A DNA stretch of 41,134 nucleotides from Acidobacteriota bacterium (GTDB lineage Bacteria > Acidobacteriota > Terriglobia > Bryobacterales > Bryobacteraceae). Positions 7,692 to 18,222 of the stretch are shown piece after piece (within the stretch, counting starts at the first letter, position 1; every line of letters begins with the position of its first letter). The notes beneath the pieces are model-generated. The model was not told the origin of the DNA. It saw only the letters and a list, made by a program, of their open reading frames with translations, and ran no database searches. The stretch spans positions 1 through 41,134 of the forward strand of contig JAPKYX010000228.1 of NCBI GenBank assembly GCA_026394075.1. The letters run 5' to 3'. A program made the position numbers and the translations under genes.

Positions 7692-7845
7692 GATTCCCCC
7701 TTCTCTTCGGCGGCACTTTCCAATATTTGAAGGCCTGATGGAAGACCCCGCTTGTCCTTATCCGCACGCCGTACCCCTGCGGATCGCGCAAAATGCGTTG
7801 CGCACACCGGAAGGGTAGCGATATCGTCAAATGCAGAGGTAAGTT

Positions 7846-10800
7846 ATGCGATTTGCCATCCTGGCGCTGTCTTCCGTCCTCACTCTTTTCGCCGCCGACT
7901 CTCAATATCTACTGCGGAATCCGGCCGTCTCAAAGACTCATGTGGTGTTCGAATATGCGGATGATCTTTGGATCACCAGCCGCTCCGGTGGCGAGGCTTC
8001 TCGCCTGACCAGTGGAGCGGGCGTCGAATCGGAAGCTCGATTTTCGCCCGATGGCAGCATGGTGGCCTTTACCGGGAACTACGACGGCAATACCGACGTG
8101 TTCGTCGTACCTTCGACGGGCGGCATCCCGAAGCGGTTGACCTTCCACCCCGGCTTCGACATCGCGCGCGGCTGGACGCCGGATGGAAAGCGGGTCCTGT
8201 TCGTCAACAGCGGCACCACCCACAATGGCGCTCCACGCCTGTATACGGTGGACGTGGATGGCGGCTTTCCGCAGGAACTTCCCTTGCCCACTGGTTTCCA
8301 TGGCTCTTATTCTCCGGATGGCTCACAGCTGGCGTATGTGCCCTTTAGCCGGGCTGATCAGGCTTGGAAGCGCTACCGCGGCGGGCGGGCGACGCCGGTC
8401 TGGATTGCGAAGCTCGCGGATTCCAGCATCACCAAGCTGCCCCGCACTGACTCCAACGACCATTCGCCGATGTGGATTGGCAACAAGGTCTACTTCCTGT
8501 CGGACCGCACCGGTCGCTATTCGCTTTACGCCTACGATGTCTCCTCCAAAAAGCTGACCACGGCGTTCGACAACAAAGGCCTCGATATCAAGGCCGCCTC
8601 CGCTGGGCCGGATGCGATCGCCTTTGAGCAGTTTGGCGACATCAACCTGCTCGACCTGAAGTCCGGCAAAGCGCAGAAGCTCGACATCAAGTTGAGCGGC
8701 GGTGATCTGGCTGGCGTCCGGCCGCGCCTGGAGAAGTTGGGCCGGTCGATCAGCAACTTCCACTTGTCGCCCACCGGAGCGCGAGCGGTGTTTGAATCGC
8801 GCGGCGAGATCTTCACCGTACCCGCCGACAAGGGCGACGTGCGCAACCTCACCAACAGCTCCGGCTTTGCCGAGCGGGACCCGGCCTGGTCCCCCGACGG
8901 GAAGTGGATCGCCTACTTCTCGGACGAATCCGGGGAGTACGAACTGCACCTGCGGGACCAGCTCGGCAAGGGCGAGGTGAAGAAGATCACGCTCGACGAA
9001 AAGCCGACCTTCTACTACAACATCGTCTGGTCACCCGATTCGAAGAAGATCGCCTACGTCGACAAGAAGACCAACGTCTGGTACGTGGACCTGGAAGCGA
9101 AGAAGCCGGTCCGCATCGACAACGGAACCTACCACGAGAGCTACAACACGTTGTCCCCACAGTGGGCGCCGGATTCGGCCTGGATCGTCTACAACAAGCA
9201 GTTGAAGACGCGGCTGCATCAGGTGTTTGTCTATTCGCTGAAGGAGGGCAAGACCTATCCGGTGACCGATGGCATGTCGGACGCCCGGGGTGCGGTTTTC
9301 GACAAAGGCGGCAAGTACCTCTACTTCTCTGCCTCCACCGATTCCGGTCCGTCGCTGGGCGGGTTGGATCTGTCGTCCAATTCGCGGCCCATTACGCGCA
9401 GCCTCTACCTGACCGTACTCTCCAAGGCCGATCCGTCACCATTCGCTCCAGAGAGCGACGAAGAAAAGGTGGCGGACGACAAGAAGGATGATGCTTCTAA
9501 ACCCGACGCTCCCAAGCCGGATGCGGCCAAGCCCGCCCCAGTTCGCGGAGCCGCCGCGGCAAAGCCGGTGGAAGTGAAGATCGACACCGACGGCCTCACC
9601 CAGCGCACGCTGCCGCTGCCCATGCCCACGCGCAACTACTCTGTACTGCAGGCGGGCAAAGCGGGCACGCTGTTTGTGGTGGAGTCACCCATCCTGCTCT
9701 CCGCCGCCACCTTCTCCCCTGCCTCGCGCATCCTCCACAAGTTCGACTTGTCGAAGCGCAAGGCCGACCCGTTTCTGACCGGCCTGGCCGGTTACATCGT
9801 CTCCGCCAATGGCGAGAAGATGCTCTACCGCCAAGGTGAGCGCTGGAGCGTCATCGCGACCGCCGCGCCCCCCGCGCCGCGCCCCGGTGAAGGCGGTGGA
9901 GCGCTGAAGACCGCCGACATGGAAGCCTTTATCGACCCGCGCGCCGAGTGGCAGCAGATGTACCGCGAAGTCTGGCGCATCGAACGCGACTTCTTCTATG
10001 ATCCGAATCTGCACGGCGTCAACCTGGCCGACTTCAAGACCAAGTATGAAAAGTACCTCAGCCGCCTGGGCAGCCGGACCGAACTGAACTACCTGTTCCA
10101 GGAGATGTTGGGCGAACTGTCGGTGGGCCACCTGTATGTGAATGGCGGCGACAATCCGGATCAGCCCAAGCGCGTCCGCGGCGGCTTGCTGGGAGCGGAC
10201 TACAAGCTGGAGAACGGACGGTACCGTTTCGCCAAAGTCTATTCCGGCGAAAGCTGGAACCCCCAGACCCGGGCGCCACTAACCCAACCGGGAGTGAACG
10301 TGGCGGCGGGCGAGTACCTGCTGGCGGTCAATGGCAAGGAGCTGAAGGATTCGGACAATGTCTACGCGGCCTTTGAGGCGACTGCTGGAAAGTCCGTTGT
10401 GCTCCGCGTGGGACCGAACCCCAGCGCCGATGGTTCACGTGAAGTGACCGTGCTTCCGGTCGATTCCGAGGTCCAACTGCGAACGTTGGCCTGGATGGAA
10501 GACAACCGCCGCAAGGTGGATCAACTTTCCGGCGGCAAGATCGCCTACATCCACCTGCCCGATACCGCCAACGGCGGCTACGACTACTTCAACCGCTACT
10601 ACTTTGCCCAAACCGACAAGCAGGGCGCGATCATCGATGAGCGCTGGAATCGCGGTGGCAAGGCGGCTGACTATGTGATTGACCACCTGCGCCGTCCGCT
10701 GTGGAACTACTGGTCCAGCCGCGATGGCGCGGACTACACCACTCCGGCCACGGCTATCTTTGGACCCAAGGTGATGATCGCCAACGAGCATTCCGGCTCC

Positions 10801-11187
10801 GGTGGCGACATGCTGCCCTGGCTGTTCAAGCGCGCCAAGCTGGGGCCGGTGGTCGGCACGCGCACCTGGGGCGGACTGGTGGGCATTGGGGGCTATCCCT
10901 CGCTGTTGGACGGCGGCTCCGTAACGGCTCCGCACTTTGGGTTCTGGAACCCTGATGGCAAGTGGGATGTCGAGAACCATGGCACGGACCCGGATGTCAC
11001 CGTCGAGATGGACCCCAAGCTGTGGCGCGAAGGGAAGGATCCGCAATTGGAGAAAGCGGTGGAACTGGCGCTGGACGAACTGAAGCGCAATCCGCTCCCG
11101 GTCCACAAAAAGCCGGCCTACCCGAACTACCAGAAGGCCACCCCGGGCGTGGGCTCGGGAGCGGCTGGGCAGGGTGGCGGGCGGTAG
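7846..11187 (+). CDS. Tricorn-like S41-family protease (beta-propeller, PDZ, tail-specific protease core)
   Basis: 1113 residues. An N-terminal signal (MRFAILALSSVLTLFA) suggests export, unlike the cytosolic archaeal tricorn. Residues about 25-520 are TolB/tricorn-type propeller repeats (RFSPDGSMVAFTG, WSPDGKWIAYFSD, WSPDSKKIAYVD). A Lys/Pro/Ala/Asp-rich linker follows (about 535-580), then the C1 helical domain, a PDZ domain (around 780-870) and the C2 catalytic domain. His762 (LSVGHLYV), Ser985 (EHSGSGGD) and Glu1043 (DVENHGTDPD) align with tricorn His746, Ser965 and Glu1023. The residue before His762 is Gly, where archaeal tricorn has Ser745. The expected role is trimming peptides into short products. 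The start is backed by AGAGG upstream. The Uma2 gene follows after 9 nt. Confidence 0.9.
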   Translation: MRFAILALSSVLTLFAADSQYLLRNPAVSKTHVVFEYADDLWITSRSGGEASRLTSGAGVESEARFSPDGSMVAFTGNYDGNTDVFVVPSTGGIPKRLTFHPGFDIARGWTPDGKRVLFVNSGTTHNGAPRLYTVDVDGGFPQELPLPTGFHGSYSPDGSQLAYVPFSRADQAWKRYRGGRATPVWIAKLADSSITKLPRTDSNDHSPMWIGNKVYFLSDRTGRYSLYAYDVSSKKLTTAFDNKGLDIKAASAGPDAIAFEQFGDINLLDLKSGKAQKLDIKLSGGDLAGVRPRLEKLGRSISNFHLSPTGARAVFESRGEIFTVPADKGDVRNLTNSSGFAERDPAWSPDGKWIAYFSDESGEYELHLRDQLGKGEVKKITLDEKPTFYYNIVWSPDSKKIAYVDKKTNVWYVDLEAKKPVRIDNGTYHESYNTLSPQWAPDSAWIVYNKQLKTRLHQVFVYSLKEGKTYPVTDGMSDARGAVFDKGGKYLYFSASTDSGPSLGGLDLSSNSRPITRSLYLTVLSKADPSPFAPESDEEKVADDKKDDASKPDAPKPDAAKPAPVRGAAAAKPVEVKIDTDGLTQRTLPLPMPTRNYSVLQAGKAGTLFVVESPILLSAATFSPASRILHKFDLSKRKADPFLTGLAGYIVSANGEKMLYRQGERWSVIATAAPPAPRPGEGGGALKTADMEAFIDPRAEWQQMYREVWRIERDFFYDPNLHGVNLADFKTKYEKYLSRLGSRTELNYLFQEMLGELSVGHLYVNGGDNPDQPKRVRGGLLGADYKLENGRYRFAKVYSGESWNPQTRAPLTQPGVNVAAGEYLLAVNGKELKDSDNVYAAFEATAGKSVVLRVGPNPSADGSREVTVLPVDSEVQLRTLAWMEDNRRKVDQLSGGKIAYIHLPDTANGGYDYFNRYYFAQTDKQGAIIDERWNRGGKAADYVIDHLRRPLWNYWSSRDGADYTTPATAIFGPKVMIANEHSGSGGDMLPWLFKRAKLGPVVGTRTWGGLVGIGGYPSLLDGGSVTAPHFGFWNPDGKWDVENHGTDPDVTVEMDPKLWREGKDPQLEKAVELALDELKRNPLPVHKKPAYPNYQKATPGVGSGAAGQGGGR

Positions 11188-11196
11188 AATAACGGT

Positions 11197-11727
11197 ATGG
11201 CGACCACGGTGCAGCGGATGAGTGTTGAGGAGTTTCTTGCCCTCCCGGCCCATGAGACCGAAGGCTGTGAACTTCACTACGGAGAGATCGTTTATATGGC
11301 GCCGCCCAAGCACCTTCACTGGTTGACCCGCGAGGCCCTACTTCGCGCTCTCCGTCCTGTGGCCGAGCCATTGGGACTGATTGGCGCGGAGATGGGTTTT
11401 CAGTGTGGCGACGATGACATCCGTGAAGCGGATATTGGCTTTGTCACACATGACCGTGCCCGCGGAATCTCAGTGGATGGTTATTTGGCCGGAGCTCCAG
11501 ACATGGTGGTGGAGATACTCTCCGCCTCCAATTCGCGAGCAGAAATGCTGGAGCGCGAAATGCGCTGCCTGATGTTCGGCTGCCGTGAGTTCTGGACCGT
11601 TGATCCAGCCAAACAGACCGTCCGGGCGGCGACGAGCAAAGCGATTTTAACTTACGGTACTGGAGATGACCTGGTCAGCTCACTATTCCCCGGCTGGTCC
11701 GTGCCGGTGGCACAGTTGTTCTCCTAG
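11197..11727 (+). CDS. Uma2-family (DUF820) PD-(D/E)XK nuclease-like protein
   Basis: This 176-residue cytoplasmic protein matches the Uma2/DUF820 family of restriction-endonuclease-like folds. The N terminus has the usual MSVEEFLALP opening. The core shows the metal-site strand (READIGFV) followed by APDMVVEILSASNSRAEM and then REFWTVDPAKQTV. The biological role of the family is unclear, and members often occur as scattered, multicopy genes in Acidobacteria and cyanobacteria. The lysine that usually follows the RAEML helix (EKV...Y) is replaced (EREMRC), so activity is uncertain. It starts 9 nt after the tricorn gene and may be co-transcribed with it. Confidence 0.8.
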   Translation: MATTVQRMSVEEFLALPAHETEGCELHYGEIVYMAPPKHLHWLTREALLRALRPVAEPLGLIGAEMGFQCGDDDIREADIGFVTHDRARGISVDGYLAGAPDMVVEILSASNSRAEMLEREMRCLMFGCREFWTVDPAKQTVRAATSKAILTYGTGDDLVSSLFPGWSVPVAQLFS

Positions 11728-11754
11728 ACCTTCCTACCTGCACCCCGCACCCCT

Positions 11755-11861
11755 GCCGGTGGCGGTAGCCGAACCGGGACGGCAGGTAATTCACCAGTTC
11801 ATCCTTGGTTTCCGGCTACGCGAGTGCGCCCCAGCAGTGGCTTTCGCCCACTTCCTCAGTC
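11755..11861 (-). pseudogene. Decayed 3' fragment of the sulfite-oxidase/cytochrome c gene
   Basis: Positions 11756-11855 align without gaps to 15650-15749, the 3' end of the intact molybdoenzyme-cytochrome gene, with about 82 of 100 bases identical by hand count. Read on the minus strand in the same frame, the fragment still encodes PETKDELVNYLPSRFGYRHR. It has a stop codon a few residues earlier, the original stop has become a sense codon, and the cytochrome's methionine position is lost. There is no start codon, so this is a non-coding relic of a duplicated gene. Confidence 0.75.
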
Positions 11862-12085
11862 GAGCCTTCTGAGCCGCGCGGGTCAGCAAGTGGTCTCCGG
11901 CCTTGATCCGCAGCCTGCGAGGGGCTGGAAGGCACAGAAGGCCATTTCGCTGAAGCTCAAAGGAGGATTACAATCGAAGCAACAGATCCGCACTCTTCAG
12001 CGAATCTGTGGAACATGCGCTCTGTCTCACCGATAAGGAATAAGGCGAGAGGATAGGCGAAAGCAAGGGGAGTAGCCTTCGAATC
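11862..12085. other. Non-coding leader region of the hybrid kinase gene
   Basis: No gene is supported in this stretch. It contains an imperfect hairpin near 11980-12007 (CAGATCCGC paired with GCGAATCTG, one mismatch) and a purine-rich run just before the kinase start at 12086. I see no convincing -35/-10 pair. Confidence 0.4.
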
Positions 12086-15000
12086 ATGGACGCCCGGGTA
12101 AAGATCAAGGAGTGTGGACCAGGGCTGAGGGCGGGCACACTCTACGCGCTACTGTTGTGCGTGTCGGTGCGGGACTGCTTGGCGAGCTCCGACGGCGAAT
12201 GGCGCTACTGGAGGCCGGAGCATGGACTTGCGGCAGCCTACGTGGAGTCGATCAGCGTTGCCGGCGATGGCTCAGTTTGGCTGAACCACGGGGACGTCTT
12301 TACGTTCACCCGGTTCGACGGTTACCGCTTCCAAACCATCAACAGCCCCGGAGTTTCCGCGACGTTCTCGAGCGCCAATGGCATCACCGGTTGGGTGGCG
12401 GGGGTCGGCGGACTCCACTATTTCGATGGCAAGTCATGGCTGGCCATTCGCGAAGAACAGACCGTTCCCATTGCGGCGGACCGCCCCCAACGGGTTTTTG
12501 ACCTCGGCCAGGGCCGAGCCTTGCTGCTGTATCCCGGAAGGATCATCGAGATCGACAGCCGAGGCGATCGACGGGTGTTTGCTGCGCCGCCCGCCGACTC
12601 TCGGGTTGGGGCGCTCCGCGGGTTTACCCACTCCTTGGACCGCAAACGGCTGTGGGCAATGGCCGAACGCGGGTTGGTGCAGTTCGATATAGGAGCCGGC
12701 ACGCCCTCTGGCTGGAATGAGTTCACTCTACCGGAAGGCATGACGGATCCGGTGTTGCCGATTCCTTGCCGAAGCCAGGAGTTATTCCTCACCGTCACCC
12801 AAACTCCGTCTCGACACGGAGCCGTCATTTCTTTCCGCGAAGGCAAATGGACGGTGATCACCCGGGAGAATCGTATCGACCAAGGGTTGCGCGGATGGCG
12901 GGATGCTCAGGGCGAGATCTGGCTGTATACCTCCGGGGAATTGCGGATTCAGCGCGGTGACTCATGGCTGTCGCTCGAAGCGAGGAATCCAGTGCTCTCC
13001 GGTATGTATACCGACATTGTGATGTCGCCGGACGGCGGGTTCTTCATTGCCACCACGCAAGGCCTGGCCTTTCATCCGCCTCCCAGTTGGGGTATTCCCA
13101 CCGGACCATCCGCCCACCTCCTGCGGCAACAAAGTAGCGGCACGACGCACGACCGGCAGGGGAATCACTGGTTCATGGGCCGCAACTCGCTCCTGCGGTC
13201 GCGACCGGGACTAATCAGGGAATATCCATTGCCTGCCGGTATCGTGAACGACTCACTGCGGGGAACCAATTTGGCGCTCCTGGCGGATGGGCGGCTATTG
13301 CTGCATCCTCATACAAACAAAGCGCTCATTGTGTTTGACCCGGCGAGCGGGCACTTTACTCCCGTGCCTGATTTACCGGGCTTTCGTGTGCTCCAGTTCT
13401 TTCCGCGCCGGGACGGGTCCGCGCTGGTGGCGCTGAGACAGTCCAGCACCGGAGAAGGGTTCTTTTCGGCGTTCGACGGCGATCACTTCGGAACGCTCCA
13501 GAAGGCGGGAGGCTCGCTGACCGTTGGACATCCCCGGGACTTCCTGGAGACCCGTACTGGCGAACTGTGGCTGGGCGGCACCCTGGGCATCATCCATGTC
13601 AGCCATGGCCAGCGCCAGGAATGGTCCAAGTTGGCGGCGGAGGACTTCAAGGGAGCCTACGCGTTCATCGAAGAGGACGACGGCTCCGTGTTGATCGCGG
13701 CCCGGCCGAGCCTGTACCGGTGGCGGAACGGCACCTTTTCTCGGGAACCCGGGTATCCCAAGAACATCCGGTCTTTTGCCCTTCTGCCGGACGGCCATCT
13801 GGTGGCCGCTGGCGGGGATGGCGTGTTTATGCGGCGAGAGTACGGCTGGCTGCCGCTTACCGAAGGTCTTCCATCGGTGGCCACGGGGCACATCTCTCAT
13901 GATCTCCAAGGAACCCTGTGGGCGGCCACGGCACAGGGACCGAGCTTCTTCCTCGGATTCCGCCCCTCCAGCCCGCCGTCCGTGCAGATCGCTTACCCGG
14001 CCAGCGGCCAGAAACTTCTGAGTTCTTCGCATTTCGTGTTCGAGGCCATGGGGCGGGACCGGTGGGAATCGACGCGGTCCTCCGAGTTGCGCTACTCGTG
14101 GAGGTTTGACCAGCAACCCTGGAGACCAGCGACAGAAGGGCAATCCATTTCCAGCCCCGATCTGGCGCCGGGGGATCATCGGGTGGAACTGAGGGTCTTC
14201 GACCGGGAAGGCACCAGATCGCAAGTTGCGTCGGTGGATTTTGCCATGATCCCGCCGTGGTACGCGAGCTCATTGTTTCACTCCATCGTGGCGACGCTAT
14301 TGGCGGTGTCTGCCTTCTTGCTGAAGAGCCTGGCTGGTAACTACCGTGACCAATCGCGGCTGATCGCAAGTCTCCAGACGGCGTCGATCCAGGCCAAGGC
14401 CGCCTCCGAGGCCAAAAGCGTGTTCTTGGCGAACATGAGCCACGAACTGCGGACACCGCTGAACGGGGTGATCGGGACCACCAGCCTGCTGATGAGCACG
14501 CCGCTGTCGGATGAACAGCGCACGTATACCAGCATCATCCGCAGCAGCGGTCAGTTATTGCTGGGCGTGATCAGTGACATTCTGGATGTATCTGCCATTG
14601 AGGCTCACCGCGTAGTGCTCGACCGGTCCGAGTTCAACCTCAGTGAAGCCGTGCACGAAACCCTTCAGGTGGTCGCCGCGGCTGCCGGAGCGAAGGGGCT
14701 GGAGCTAAAAGCCCGGCTGGCGGCTGACATTCCGCGGTCTGTTTACGGCGATACCCTGCGCTTCAAGCAGATTTTGCTCAATCTGCTTTCGAACGCCATC
14801 AAGTTCGCCACGCACGGGGAGGTTGTGGTGGAATGCGAGGTGGTTGGGTGCCAGGAGCGCGACGTGACGCTCCGGTTTACGGTGACCGATCAGGGACCGG
14901 GCTTCAACCCGGAGTTAACGCCCACGCTCTTTGAACCCTTCACTCAGGTCGATCCCTCAGCGCGCCGCCACTACGGGGGCACGGGGCTCGGCTTGGCCAT

Positions 15001-15622
15001 CTGCAAGAATCTGGTGGAACTGATGGGCGGCTCAATTGGGGTGGAAAGTCAACCAGGGACCGGGGCCTCGTTCTGGTTTACCCTCCATTTGGAGGCGGCG
15101 GATACCCCTGAGGATTCTTGCCCCCCTAGCTTGCCGGCACTTGCTGCTGCCATCGGGACACCGAATCTTGCAATGAGGACGGCGTCACCGATGCCGGCGG
15201 CGCGCATTCTGCTGGCCGAAGATAACCGGGTGAATCAACTGGTGGCCAAGGCGCTGTTGATCAAGTTAGGCCTTCAGGTTGACGTGGTGGAAAATGGCGA
15301 GCAGGCGCTGGCCGCCGTCAAACAATCAACGTATGACCTGGTGCTGATGGATTGCCAGATGCCCGGCATGGATGGGTTTGAGGCCACCCGCGCCATCCGT
15401 GCCTTGGAAGAGGCAGCCCCCTCCAGCCGGATTCCGATCGTCGCCCTGACCGCCCATGCCGTCTCGGGCGATCGCGAGCGTTGCCTGGAAGCAGGCATGG
15501 ATGATTACCTGACGAAACCGGTCGATATCACGCGCTTGGCGGACGTTCTTTCGCACTGGATCGAGGCCCCCGCCCGTAGCGATCAGCCGGCGGCTACACC
15601 CCCGGTCCACGATCGGCAGTAG
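12086..15622 (+). CDS. Hybrid sensor histidine kinase/response regulator with a propeller sensor domain
   Basis: 1178 residues. A signal/anchor segment near the N terminus is followed by a large extracytoplasmic region of two-component-regulator propeller repeats (about 40-640; LWLNHG- and [10 protein letters not shown]-type blades) and a Y_Y_Y-type beta domain. A single membrane segment lies at about 728-751. The cytoplasmic part has a HisKA dimerisation domain with phosphoacceptor His786 ([12 protein letters not shown]), a HATPase domain (N box [14 protein letters not shown] boxes DQGPGF and [13 protein letters not shown]) and a C-terminal receiver with Asp1089 ([13 protein letters not shown]) and the conserved Lys in YLTKPVD. 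There is no DNA-binding output domain, so phosphate probably passes to another regulator. The solo receiver at 17161 is a nearby candidate, which is inference only. Such sensors often respond to extracellular glycans or other polymers. Confidence 0.9.
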
Positions 15623-15646
15623 GCCGCGGGGCCGTCGCTTCCCCGA

Positions 15647-16939
15647 CTACCGGTGGCGGTAGCCGAACCGCGACACCAGGTAGTTCAGCAGCTCGTCCTT
15701 GGTTTCCGGCTTCACCGGAGCGCCCCAGCGCTGCATCTTGCCCACTTCCGCTTCCCATTGCGCCCGGGACAGGCGTTGCTTCCGCACTGGGCCTTCATCA
15801 TGGCAGCCGACGCAGGTGGCCTTATAGACTGCCGGTGGCTCAATCGCGGGTGCGGTGGGCACGGGGGCGGATTCCGAGGCGACCTGGTGGATCGCGTTCC
15901 ACTGATAGCCCGACGGGTTCCATTCCTGCGCCATGGGCTGCGTATGGCCCCAGGTGTCGTGGGCGCGGGCCATCACCACGTAGTAGCCTGTCGGCGGCTG
16001 CCAATCATATTCCCAGGTGACCCACCCGAACGGCGTGCGCGGGGAGGTGATCTTGGCGGCTTTCCAGGTGCGGCCCCGGTCCACGGAGACCTCCACGGTC
16101 GCCACTGCTTTCTCGCCCGCCCAGGCGGCGCCGGAGACCTTGGGTCCGATGGCGGCGATGACGGACTTTACCTGAATCGCTTCCACCGGCTTCATCTCTT
16201 CCGGCTTCACGGGCAGGCCGGGCTGCATGCCCTTGCCGGGGTGCCGGTAGCCGGTCTTCATGAAGAAGCCGTCGAACTCCTTGTCCAGCACTTCAATCCG
16301 CGTCACCCACTTCACCCAGGAATCGCCCGCCCAACCCGGAGCGATCACCCGCAGCGGGAAGCCATGCGAGGCCGGCAGCGCGGCACCGTTCATGTCAAAG
16401 GCAAGCAGAGTGTTGGGGTCCATCGCCTTGTCGATCGGGATGGTCCGCTGGAACTCCGGCTGCGCGCCCACCGGCACGTCGGCACCGTCAAACAGCACGT
16501 GTTTGGCACCCGGCTTGACGCCCACGCGCTTCAGCACATCGGCCAACCGGACGCCGCGCCACCGGGCGTTGCCCACGCTGCCATGCTCCCACTGCAGGCC
16601 CGGCATGGAAGGCTCATAGAAGCCGCGCCCATTGCCCGCGCATTCCAGCACGGCCACCATCTCCACCGGCTTCATCGCCTTCAGATCCGCCATGGAAAGT
16701 GTCAGCCCACCGTTGACGTGCCCTTTCACCTCCAGCTTCCAGGCGTCGAGCTCAATCTTGGGCGTCAAATGGTGGCTGCGCACAAAGAAGTGCTCCACCG
16801 GCGTGATGTAGTCCTTAAAGCCCGCCAGTGGCATCTCATAGCCTTCCTGGCGCGAGTTATGGATGATCATGTCGCGCTTCTGCGCTTGCAATTGAAGCGC
16901 GGCGCCGGAAAGGGTGGCCAACAGGGTTCGACGGTTCAT
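15647..16939 (-). CDS. Tat-exported sulfite oxidase-like molybdoenzyme fused to cytochrome c
   Basis: 430 residues. The N terminus (MNRRTLLATLSGAALQLQAQ) has twin arginines followed by a hydrophobic stretch, typical of Tat export of a cofactor-loaded enzyme. The oxidoreductase molybdopterin domain (about 35-215) contains the molybdenum-ligating Cys100 in VLECAGNGR, and a Mo-co dimerisation domain (about 230-345) follows. The C terminus is a small class I cytochrome c domain with a haem motif CVGCH at 376-380 and a likely axial Met402. Known sulfite-oxidising enzymes of the SorAB type use a separate cytochrome subunit; here both are on one chain. Sulfite is the best guess for the substrate but is not proven. 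It converges with the kinase gene across a 24-bp gap. Confidence 0.85.
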   Translation of the reverse strand: MNRRTLLATLSGAALQLQAQKRDMIIHNSRQEGYEMPLAGFKDYITPVEHFFVRSHHLTPKIELDAWKLEVKGHVNGGLTLSMADLKAMKPVEMVAVLECAGNGRGFYEPSMPGLQWEHGSVGNARWRGVRLADVLKRVGVKPGAKHVLFDGADVPVGAQPEFQRTIPIDKAMDPNTLLAFDMNGAALPASHGFPLRVIAPGWAGDSWVKWVTRIEVLDKEFDGFFMKTGYRHPGKGMQPGLPVKPEEMKPVEAIQVKSVIAAIGPKVSGAAWAGEKAVATVEVSVDRGRTWKAAKITSPRTPFGWVTWEYDWQPPTGYYVVMARAHDTWGHTQPMAQEWNPSGYQWNAIHQVASESAPVPTAPAIEPPAVYKATCVGCHDEGPVRKQRLSRAQWEAEVGKMQRWGAPVKPETKDELLNYLVSRFGYRHR

Positions 16940-17082
16940 CAGACAAAGCTTCCTTCGCTAGTGTAGTCCGTCCGGAGCGGCCGTGGATGGCCATGGGGGT
17001 GTTAAGACAAATACCTGAGATGTCCTAAAGATTTTTCTCAAGTCTCCCACAGTTTCACCGATAGGCCCTTCAAGCGTGGCAC

Positions 17083-17098
17083 TGGCACTTTGATTGCC
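17083..17098 (+). promoter_or_regulatory. Sigma-54 (-24/-12) promoter
   Basis: TGGCAC-N5-TTGCC matches the sigma-54 consensus (TGGCAC-N5-TTGCW) at every base except the last, with the invariant GG and GC exactly 10 nt apart. Transcription would start near 17110, about 50 nt before the response regulator start codon. Sigma-54 promoters need an enhancer-binding activator, and none is encoded in the window. Confidence 0.6.
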
Positions 17099-17160
17099 GT
17101 CCCCGTCTGCGGCATCGGCCGGTGAATGTTGACTTTTGTTGAAAATCAAAGGATCGAAAC

Positions 17161-17598
17161 ATGCAAATCAAGAGACGCATTATCCGCAGCCAACTCGCTG
17201 CCACCCCCATCAACCCAGAACCTGAGAAGCAGTTGGCCCTGGTCGCCGACGACGATTGGGTATCGCGCGAAGTTGTCTGCGCGATTCTCGAACGCCAGGG
17301 ATACGAATGCATCCGCGCCAAGTCCGGCCATGAGACTCGGGCGTTGCTCTACCGCCACCACCCCGGCCTGATGATCCTCGATCTGAACATGCCCTTGGGC
17401 GGAGGCTTGGATGTATTGTCGACACTGAAGCAAGCGCCGCCGCAGAAACCCGTCAAGACCATGATCCTGACTGGCAGTTCGGACACCGAAGACATCCAGC
17501 TGGCAGCATCGCTTGGTGCGACCAACTATATGACTAAACCGCTGGTCACCGCGGAGTTCATCACCCGTATCCACGCGATGGAAGCGGCGGCCAGCTAA
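17161..17598 (+). CDS. Single-domain response regulator (CheY-like receiver)
   Basis: 145 residues, mostly a REC domain. The acidic pocket (VADDDW, about 28-33), phosphoacceptor Asp74 (LMILDLNMPLGGG), Thr104 (MILTGS) and Lys126 (NYMTKPL) are all present. There is no output domain, so it should act by protein contact or as a relay intermediate. The ATG has AAAGGA upstream, the -24/-12 promoter at 17083-17098 lies upstream, and a strong hairpin follows the gene, so it is probably a monocistronic unit. Possible partners are the hybrid kinase at 12086 or the adjacent T6SS; both are inference from proximity. Confidence 0.88.
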   Translation: MQIKRRIIRSQLAATPINPEPEKQLALVADDDWVSREVVCAILERQGYECIRAKSGHETRALLYRHHPGLMILDLNMPLGGGLDVLSTLKQAPPQKPVKTMILTGSSDTEDIQLAASLGATNYMTKPLVTAEFITRIHAMEAAAS

Positions 17599-17629
17599 CA
17601 GCTGTCGTCAAGCTCGCAGGGTGACGGTT

Positions 17630-17663
17630 GCGGCTCAGTAGATCACGCATTCTACTGAGCCGC
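17630..17663 (+). terminator. Hairpin terminator after the response regulator
   Basis: A perfect 13-bp stem (GCGGCTCAGTAGA/TCTACTGAGCCGC) with an 8-nt loop lies 31 nt after the response regulator stop. There is no immediate T run; a TTTT occurs about 25 nt later. It may serve both the plus-strand gene and the convergent minus-strand T6SS arm. Confidence 0.55.
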
Positions 17664-17745
17664 GCACGTCAGTCTGCGGGATCTGAATTTTGGCACGGGC
17701 AGTTAGGCGGTTACGCCGCGCTGCCGCTTCAACGGCCCTGGACCA

Positions 17746-18222
17746 TCACTTGGCGGCCGGGCCGGGCCCCGGACAGGGAATTTCACGTCCGCCGCGGTAG
17801 CAGATCCGTTCGGTCACCTTACCGTCCTCGGCAAACCGGGTGAGGATTCCTTCCAGCAGGTTCGCCTCGTAGCCCTTGATTTCGCGCGGTTTGCCGCTGG
17901 GGTAGAACTCGGTGGTCCGTCCGCTCAAGTCGTCGTTCTCAAACAGCGACTGGCGGACCATACGATCCTGCGGGTCAAAATACTGTGCCTCGCCGTGGAG
18001 CTTGTCGGCCCGATAGTTCACCTGCATCAACCGGGTACCCGTTTCGCTGAAGAACGTCGCCGGGCCTTCCCGCTTGCCGTCCACATACTGAATGATGGCG
18101 TCCAACCGCCCGCGCGAATACAGGCGCACTTCGCCATTCAGGACGCCCTGCCCATCCAGCGGCAGCTGCTCCTGCGGACGGCCCTGGTCGTCGTGCCGTT
18201 CAAGCGTGGTTGGTTCAGCCAT
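17746..18222 (-). CDS. YwqK-like protein with MORN-variant repeats, last gene of the T6SS minus arm
   Basis: 158 residues made of MORN_2/YwqK-type repeats of about 22 residues. Examples are LNGEVRLYSRGRLDAIIQYVD, KREGPATFFSETGTRLMQVNY, KLHGEAQYFDPQDRMVRQS and LSGRTTEFYPSGKPREIKGY. It has no signal peptide or catalytic motif. YwqK is annotated as the antitoxin of a toxin pair in Bacillus, but related repeats occur in many unrelated roles. It starts 18 nt after the vgrG stop, in the position where T6SS clusters often keep adaptors, effectors or immunity proteins. A spike accessory or immunity role is therefore possible but unproven. Confidence 0.7.
   Translation of the reverse strand: MAEPTTLERHDDQGRPQEQLPLDGQGVLNGEVRLYSRGRLDAIIQYVDGKREGPATFFSETGTRLMQVNYRADKLHGEAQYFDPQDRMVRQSLFENDDLSGRTTEFYPSGKPREIKGYEANLLEGILTRFAEDGKVTERICYRGGREIPCPGPGPAAK

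Follow-up and report, generated by a model that had tools for sequence, protein, structure and literature searches.

The closest described counterparts of the locus reported here are E. coli integrants that arose while homology-facilitated illegitimate recombination was being tested with a conjugated plasmid (PMC3240628). According to the accessible part of that report, 56 of 60 clones yielded the diagnostic PCR product that is expected when part of the target gene is duplicated; in 14 sequenced clones the duplications measured 109 to 950 bp, and the authors explained them by shortening, recircularisation and a single crossover. Our locus resembles these integrants in that foreign DNA is accompanied by a direct duplication of the end of the target gene, 103 bp here against 109 to 950 bp there. 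It differs from them as a natural, old event with one joint in a mobile repeat differs from a laboratory event with a marked plasmid.

Two other systems are comparable in part, as far as the available portions of the sources describe them. At type VI effector and Rhs loci, with their displaced 3' regions and orphan immunity genes (PMC5361080), an incoming module is likewise anchored by homology and the old 3' part is shifted; there, immunity genes and effector 3' ends are shifted, whereas here a sensor kinase came in and the decaying tail of an enzyme was displaced. Insertion sequence (IS)-derived MITEs (PMC3733652) are comparable to the mobile repeat at our locus, which is about 140 nt long and whose 21-nt ends agree at 19 and 20 of 21 positions with the ends of a full IS from a genome of the same genus. 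Unlike them, our repeat has in its interior a pair of inverted palindromes resembling repetitive extragenic palindromes, and the copy studied here is a right half only.

The 'window', that is, the whole stretch of 41,134 nucleotides that was analysed, comes from the draft genome of a lake acidobacterium of the family Bryobacteraceae, of 5.77 Mb (302 contigs, 96.9% complete). Candidatus Solibacter usitatus Ellin6076 is presumably related to this host more closely than at the level of the phylum. Short repeats and mobile elements are numerous in its genome, and repeat-mediated recombination has been proposed for them (PMC3174227). The phylum and a repeat-rich genome are thus common to both; a gene-end duplication around an inserted kinase is not described in the accessible part of that source.

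The locus is organised around a sulfite-oxidase-like gene with a cytochrome part, which we call SOX. The features needed to follow the argument are these:

11197 to 11727, plus strand: Uma2-family gene (PF05685, 80.7 bits), left neighbour and ancestral neighbour of the SOX 3' end
11753 to 11855, minus strand: relic derived from the 3' end of SOX, covering its last 33 sense codons and the old stop position (84 of 103 positions identical; internal stop, lost stop)
12086 to 15622, plus strand: hybrid sensor histidine kinase of 1178 aa (HisKA, HATPase_c, Response_reg)
15647 to 15749, minus strand: live copy of the duplicated stretch, the 3' end of SOX
15647 to 16939, minus strand: live SOX, a molybdopterin oxidoreductase with a C-terminal cytochrome c part (SorA/SorB-like fusion)

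The live SOX protein matches PF00174 and PF03404, and PF13442 weakly, below its cut-off. Curated scores do not support naming it a SorA/SorB sulfite dehydrogenase, since both models stay below their cut-offs (SorA 312.3 bits against 600, SorB 29.5 bits against 93, both parts lying on one chain).

Positions 11753 to 11855 and 15647 to 15749 form a gap-free direct repeat of 103 nt with 81.6% identity; the runner-up among gap-free 103-nt stretches, searched over the whole window and both strands, reached 51 identities. A sequence-only reading had noticed a gapless match to the SOX 3' end at 11755 to 11861, with the kinase gene between the live gene and its relic. The match is real and the kinase does lie between the two copies. 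The extent had to be corrected: homology runs from 11753 to 11855, and the stretch up to 11861 belongs elsewhere. Beyond 11855, positions 11856 to 11893 are 18 to 29% identical to the continuation of the live gene (offsets -2 to +2), which is chance level. An extension of the relic to 11893, suggested by a protein search, was rejected on this ground, the stretch being mobile repeat. The SOX frame is kept in the relic, whose translation is EVGESHCWGALA*PETKDELVNYLPSRFGYRHRQ where the live gene gives EVGKMQRWGAPVKPETKDELLNYLVSRFGYRHR*. One internal TAG is present and the normal final TAG has become CAG, as the first reading had it. The only RNA family match in the gap was at chance level (sR39, 13.3 bits against a cut-off of 50).

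When the relic and live stretches were searched in their own genome, two places were retrieved (E = 8e-22 and 4e-22), and no third place in the 5.77 Mb scored better than E = 0.23. A dispersed repeat, which the sequence-only reading had named as the finding that would speak against its match, does not explain the 103 nt, given only two genome places; yet a dispersed repeat does begin right beside the relic. What survives in the relic is degraded sequence from the 3' end of SOX.

Two other genomes of the same genus were found, G001 (locus L070) and G002 (locus L071), which makes three with the window's own genome, G000; all are drafts. Their SOX proteins are 96% identical to that of the window. 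In both, the order is protease gene, Uma2, SOX, with no kinase and a single SOX 3' end. Window positions 7813 to 11855 align to L071 14348-10312, and window positions 15647 to 16969 to L071 10414-9092. Both window copies thereby share one 103-nt stretch, L071 10312-10414, and L070 is alike to within a base. Because Uma2 abuts the single SOX in both congeners, the relic stands at the ancestral place of the SOX end; because one and the same 103-nt stretch aligns to both window copies, the segment below is extra in the window genome:

11856 to 15646, no strand: inserted segment relative to both congeners found, delimited by the congener alignments and bounded by the two 103-nt copies

The kinase gene fills most of this insert, and the 30 nt just outside the two copies are 27% identical. 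From these alignments, the kinase segment is likely to be the newcomer. The sequence-only reading had taken the match to mean that a second molybdoenzyme gene once stood beside the kinase or that a paralogue had replaced it, and had pointed to synteny for a second sulfite oxidase at the relic position. No such copy stands there in either congener found, where Uma2 abuts the one SOX 3' end, and the need for a second gene is not supported. The arrangement most likely records the insertion of the kinase and does not testify to a second enzyme gene.

Neither G001 nor G002 yielded an orthologue of the insert among the best 40 of 74 and the best 40 of 143 candidates scored; the matches were to the dispersed repeat and to short kinase or receiver-domain stretches (67 to 86%, no longer than about 320 nt). 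Relatives of the kinase were sought more widely, with two or three candidates scored per genome. Among 237 family genomes, two had a relative at E <= 1e-165, including the window's own, the other being 35% identical; among 250 order genomes, seven had one at E <= 1e-150, again including the own genome, the other six being 33 to 35% identical. A full kinase or Uma2 match beside SOX was seen in none of 20 other SOX loci compared (10 of 27 non-genus loci, mostly with 1.5-kb flanks, and 10 of 12 further loci, at least one being counted twice); L048 had only a receiver-domain match beside SOX.

The left joint of the insert lies at a mobile repeat, which begins at most 10 nt from the end of the relic:

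11864 to 11921, plus strand: right half of a MITE-like dispersed element of about 140 nt (inner palindromic arm and right inverted end; the spacer may reach 11857)

This repeat recurs at 28 or more other places in the genome at E <= 0.001 (40 of 60 candidates scored), and 18 copies were aligned. Complete copies, about 140 nt long, combine CTAGCAGGCTGCGGAAAAAGG as inverted ends with a pair of palindromic arms, themselves inverted, and about 30 nt of spacer; an example with 21-nt inverted ends is G002:C13:41118-41257, of 140 nt. Both arms and the right end were recovered, with lax matching, in 23 of 38 sources, all of which had been chosen for holding the repeat. Matches to the inverted end (up to 3 mismatches, both strands) numbered 17 in G000, 4 in G001 and 65 in G002, and a reversed control gave 0. 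In the window, positions 11866 to 11921 agree with the family consensus at 49 of 56 sites and the right inverted end, 11901 to 11921, has 3 mismatches. The left arm was not found within 11601 to 12086, nor the left inverted end within 11501 to 16000. Since both are missing and SOX sequence stands in their place, the seam falls in or near the spacer of the element. A complete G002 copy folded as DNA gave z = -7.0 against shuffles, with the inverted ends forming a stem around a branched interior; the seam would thus lie in the interior and not at the tip of one simple hairpin. Window positions 11856 to 11935 folded as RNA, a result not directly comparable with the DNA fold, were unremarkable (z = -0.55).

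A likely source for the family was found in G002, where a 1317-nt element (G002:C91:1-1317; L175 1-1317) carries both inverted ends, with 2 and 1 mismatches of 21. Its transposase scores 270.9 bits with the IS5-family model NF033581 (cut-off 140), and 194.8 bits with an IS1182 model, below the cut-off of 270. Judged by these ends, this IS5-family insertion sequence probably represents the parent family of the short repeat. The family shares with MITEs that it is short and many-copy, with terminal inverted repeats in the range of 15 to 30 nt (the window copy being a right half only), and its ends are nearly those of an autonomous IS, the G002:C91 element. No title or abstract beginning retrieved from the literature describes the family, which is not proof of absence. 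As a rough guide to chance, some 40 copies, each of 140 nt, would cover 0.1% of the 5.77-Mb genome, and between genes perhaps ten times that, the intergenic share being guessed. Elsewhere in the own genome, locus L145 (G000:C100) shows a weak Y1 transposase match at 602-823 (29.1 bits, cut-off 23). It lies among three copies, counted by eye, of another palindrome, CACTCCGCTCCATGCTGTCGCGGCTC, and recalls REP-associated transposases.

At the right joint, the stop codons of the kinase gene and of SOX lie 24 nt apart. An inverted end of the mobile repeat was looked for there and not found (11501 to 16000), and no repeat within 15600 to 15760 was matched in the own genome. No clear microhomology was seen at either joint, with a few C at most near the right one, by eye; such microhomology is common at illegitimate joints without being required.

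We propose, with a probability of about 60%, that the kinase arrived on a DNA piece which used homology to integrate at the SOX 3' end; 103 nt would have been duplicated in the process, and one of the joints would have fallen inside the mobile repeat. Uma2 would have stood directly beside the SOX 3' end in the ancestor, and the incoming piece would have carried the kinase gene with the last 103 nt of SOX at its right end. By the most likely route, the piece would have circularised, joining SOX position -103 to the interior of the mobile repeat, and a single crossover within the 103 nt common to both would have integrated the circle. SOX would thereby remain complete next to the kinase, Uma2 would be left with a displaced SOX end of 103 nt at its side, and this end would later have decayed. 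A single crossover of a circle would account for all features at once, namely the whole SOX, the displaced 103-nt end and an arbitrary joint on the displaced side. The site is empty in two congeners, the 103-nt duplication is present at both edges, the relic decays without constraint, and the mobile repeat is truncated at the left joint. An insert that is absent from relatives, here two congeners, and flanked by direct repeats of the target end is what characterises homology-guided insertion. Parsimony leads us to infer a gain of the kinase here, as opposed to its loss from the congeners. We likewise infer the circle or a one-sided integration, a donor in which the kinase was next to SOX, and the break in the repeat. 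Against the proposal count the 20 other SOX loci compared, none of which shows a donor arrangement, the informative sites that do not group the relic with the live copy, the lack of clear microhomology at the joints, the seam in the interior of a branched fold, and a sample of three draft genomes for the genus.

The main rival to this integration is a two-step history, which is the strongest form of the first reading's idea; we hold it to be rather improbable. A longer or complete second SOX would have come to lie between Uma2 and the kinase, either by tandem duplication or by integration through a single crossover. Afterwards, a deletion from SOX position -103 into the mobile repeat would have taken away the remainder of that second copy together with the left half of the repeat. 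Inverted repeats are known deletion endpoints. A repeat cut through its interior at most 10 nt from the end of SOX homology would suit such a deletion, and the decay of the remaining 103 nt is compatible with it. However, the relic side holds no SOX sequence beyond the 103 nt, and no second close SOX appears among the matches listed for both congeners and the own genome, which are otherwise distant paralogues (in the own genome, 8 further SOX-fold matches with 26 to 39% identity). The two-step history also needs an extra step.

The age of the event bears on a second alternative. Over 103 sites, the relic differs from the live copy at 19, from G001 at 24 and from G002 at 21. Its 12 private changes are spread over the codon positions as 5/3/4, compared to 10/7/91 between the live gene and G001 over the whole gene (Fisher p = 0.00035). 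The relic has therefore evolved free of coding constraint, in the manner of non-coding DNA. At 0.117 per site, its private changes amount to about half the divergence at third positions between the live gene and G001 (0.211), so that the event would be roughly as old as the split between these two. Informative sites group the relic with the live copy twice, with G001 once and with G002 twice; the relic is not placed with the live copy, and this speaks against a firm claim that the event is younger than the species split. Of five relic sites shared only with the live copy, three have different bases in G001 and G002 and are uninformative, so that the apparent support from the five does not stand.

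Both the age estimate and the undecided placing of the relic would also suit a kinase ancestral to the genus, lost from both congeners by recombination between the then-identical 103-nt repeats, which would have restored a single SOX end; direct repeats would make so precise a loss easy. We nevertheless regard this as unlikely, because the kinase would have had to be inserted and then lost once or twice. By its protease gene, the window genome goes with G001 (90.8%) over G002 (84.5%), which implies two losses if the tree holds, and no close relative of the kinase turned up in the other family genomes searched.

Integrative elements regenerate a gene end on one side and leave the displaced end on the other. 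A remnant of a site-specific element that used the SOX 3' end as attachment site and carried a replacement 3' end would therefore give the same geometry as that of the SOX locus. This origin is very improbable: a single kinase gene fills the insert, with signalling domains only (it was the sole insert ORF scanned against Pfam), and the 103-nt match occurs nowhere else in the genome. An attachment-site element was rejected because no integrase was seen in the insert beside the one kinase gene. An assembly artefact, conceivable in a draft of 302 contigs with mobile repeats that can mislead assemblers, is scarcely credible, as a misjoin would not make two copies that differ at 19 of 103 sites with only one of them decayed.

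The locus seems to have recombined more than once, to judge from alignments of its neighbouring genes. The window Uma2 protein has 57% and 56% amino acid identity to its counterparts at the same place in G001 and G002. Over window positions 11239 to 11638, the DNA identity is 0.77 to 0.85 between G001 and G002 and 0.48 to 0.63 between either and the window, yet G001 and the window gene share 86% identity over their final 65 nt. The body of the Uma2 gene has likely been replaced in the window genome. In SOX, the first 620 nt go with G001 (55 of 82 sites are G002-only); after nt 620 (window 15647 to 16320) this closeness is lost (39 of 103). A permutation test, with 17 three-state sites left out, gave 1 of 300 as extreme. 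The 3' part of SOX thus appears to carry a recombination signal, acquired in the window genome or in G001. Conversion by donor DNA would be expected to cost SOX its closeness to G001 in this way, but G001 may instead be the recombinant.

Between SOX and the next shared gene (window 16968 to 17768), a response-regulator gene (17161 to 17598) is followed by a palindrome doublet at about 17617 to 17680. The pieces of G001 that match the edges of this interval are only about 46 nt apart, and the interval matches G001 and G002 via the palindrome only. On this comparison, it is probably a second insertion at the SOX locus. In G002, a complete 140-nt repeat (L071 8858-8997) lies just upstream of SOX, where gene order departs from that of the window and G001.

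Repeats accordingly stand at three seams of the SOX locus: the half element at the kinase insert (11864 to 11921), the doublet at the response-regulator insert (about 17617 to 17680) and the complete element at the G002 break upstream of SOX. It is conceivable, though doubtful, that accessory signalling genes enter the genus at seams which IS-derived inverted repeats and like palindromes both mark and help to create, an association based on this one locus. A break inside the repeat would provide a free end, and homology to the neighbouring gene would provide the anchor. The fold of the complete repeat slightly weakens this idea, since its interior is branched where a single hairpin would have placed the seam at the tip.

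The event is ordinary in kind, a gene gain of known type with a cut mobile repeat at the seam. It carries a warning, in that the neighbourhood of kinase and enzyme is recent here and offers no evidence of shared function. Its value lies in a readable scar of gene gain that still shows the empty site, the duplicated edge and the broken mobile repeat, in a lineage for which metagenome-assembled genomes are the only source here. A sensor kinase can thus come to adjoin a molybdoenzyme without duplication of a whole gene.
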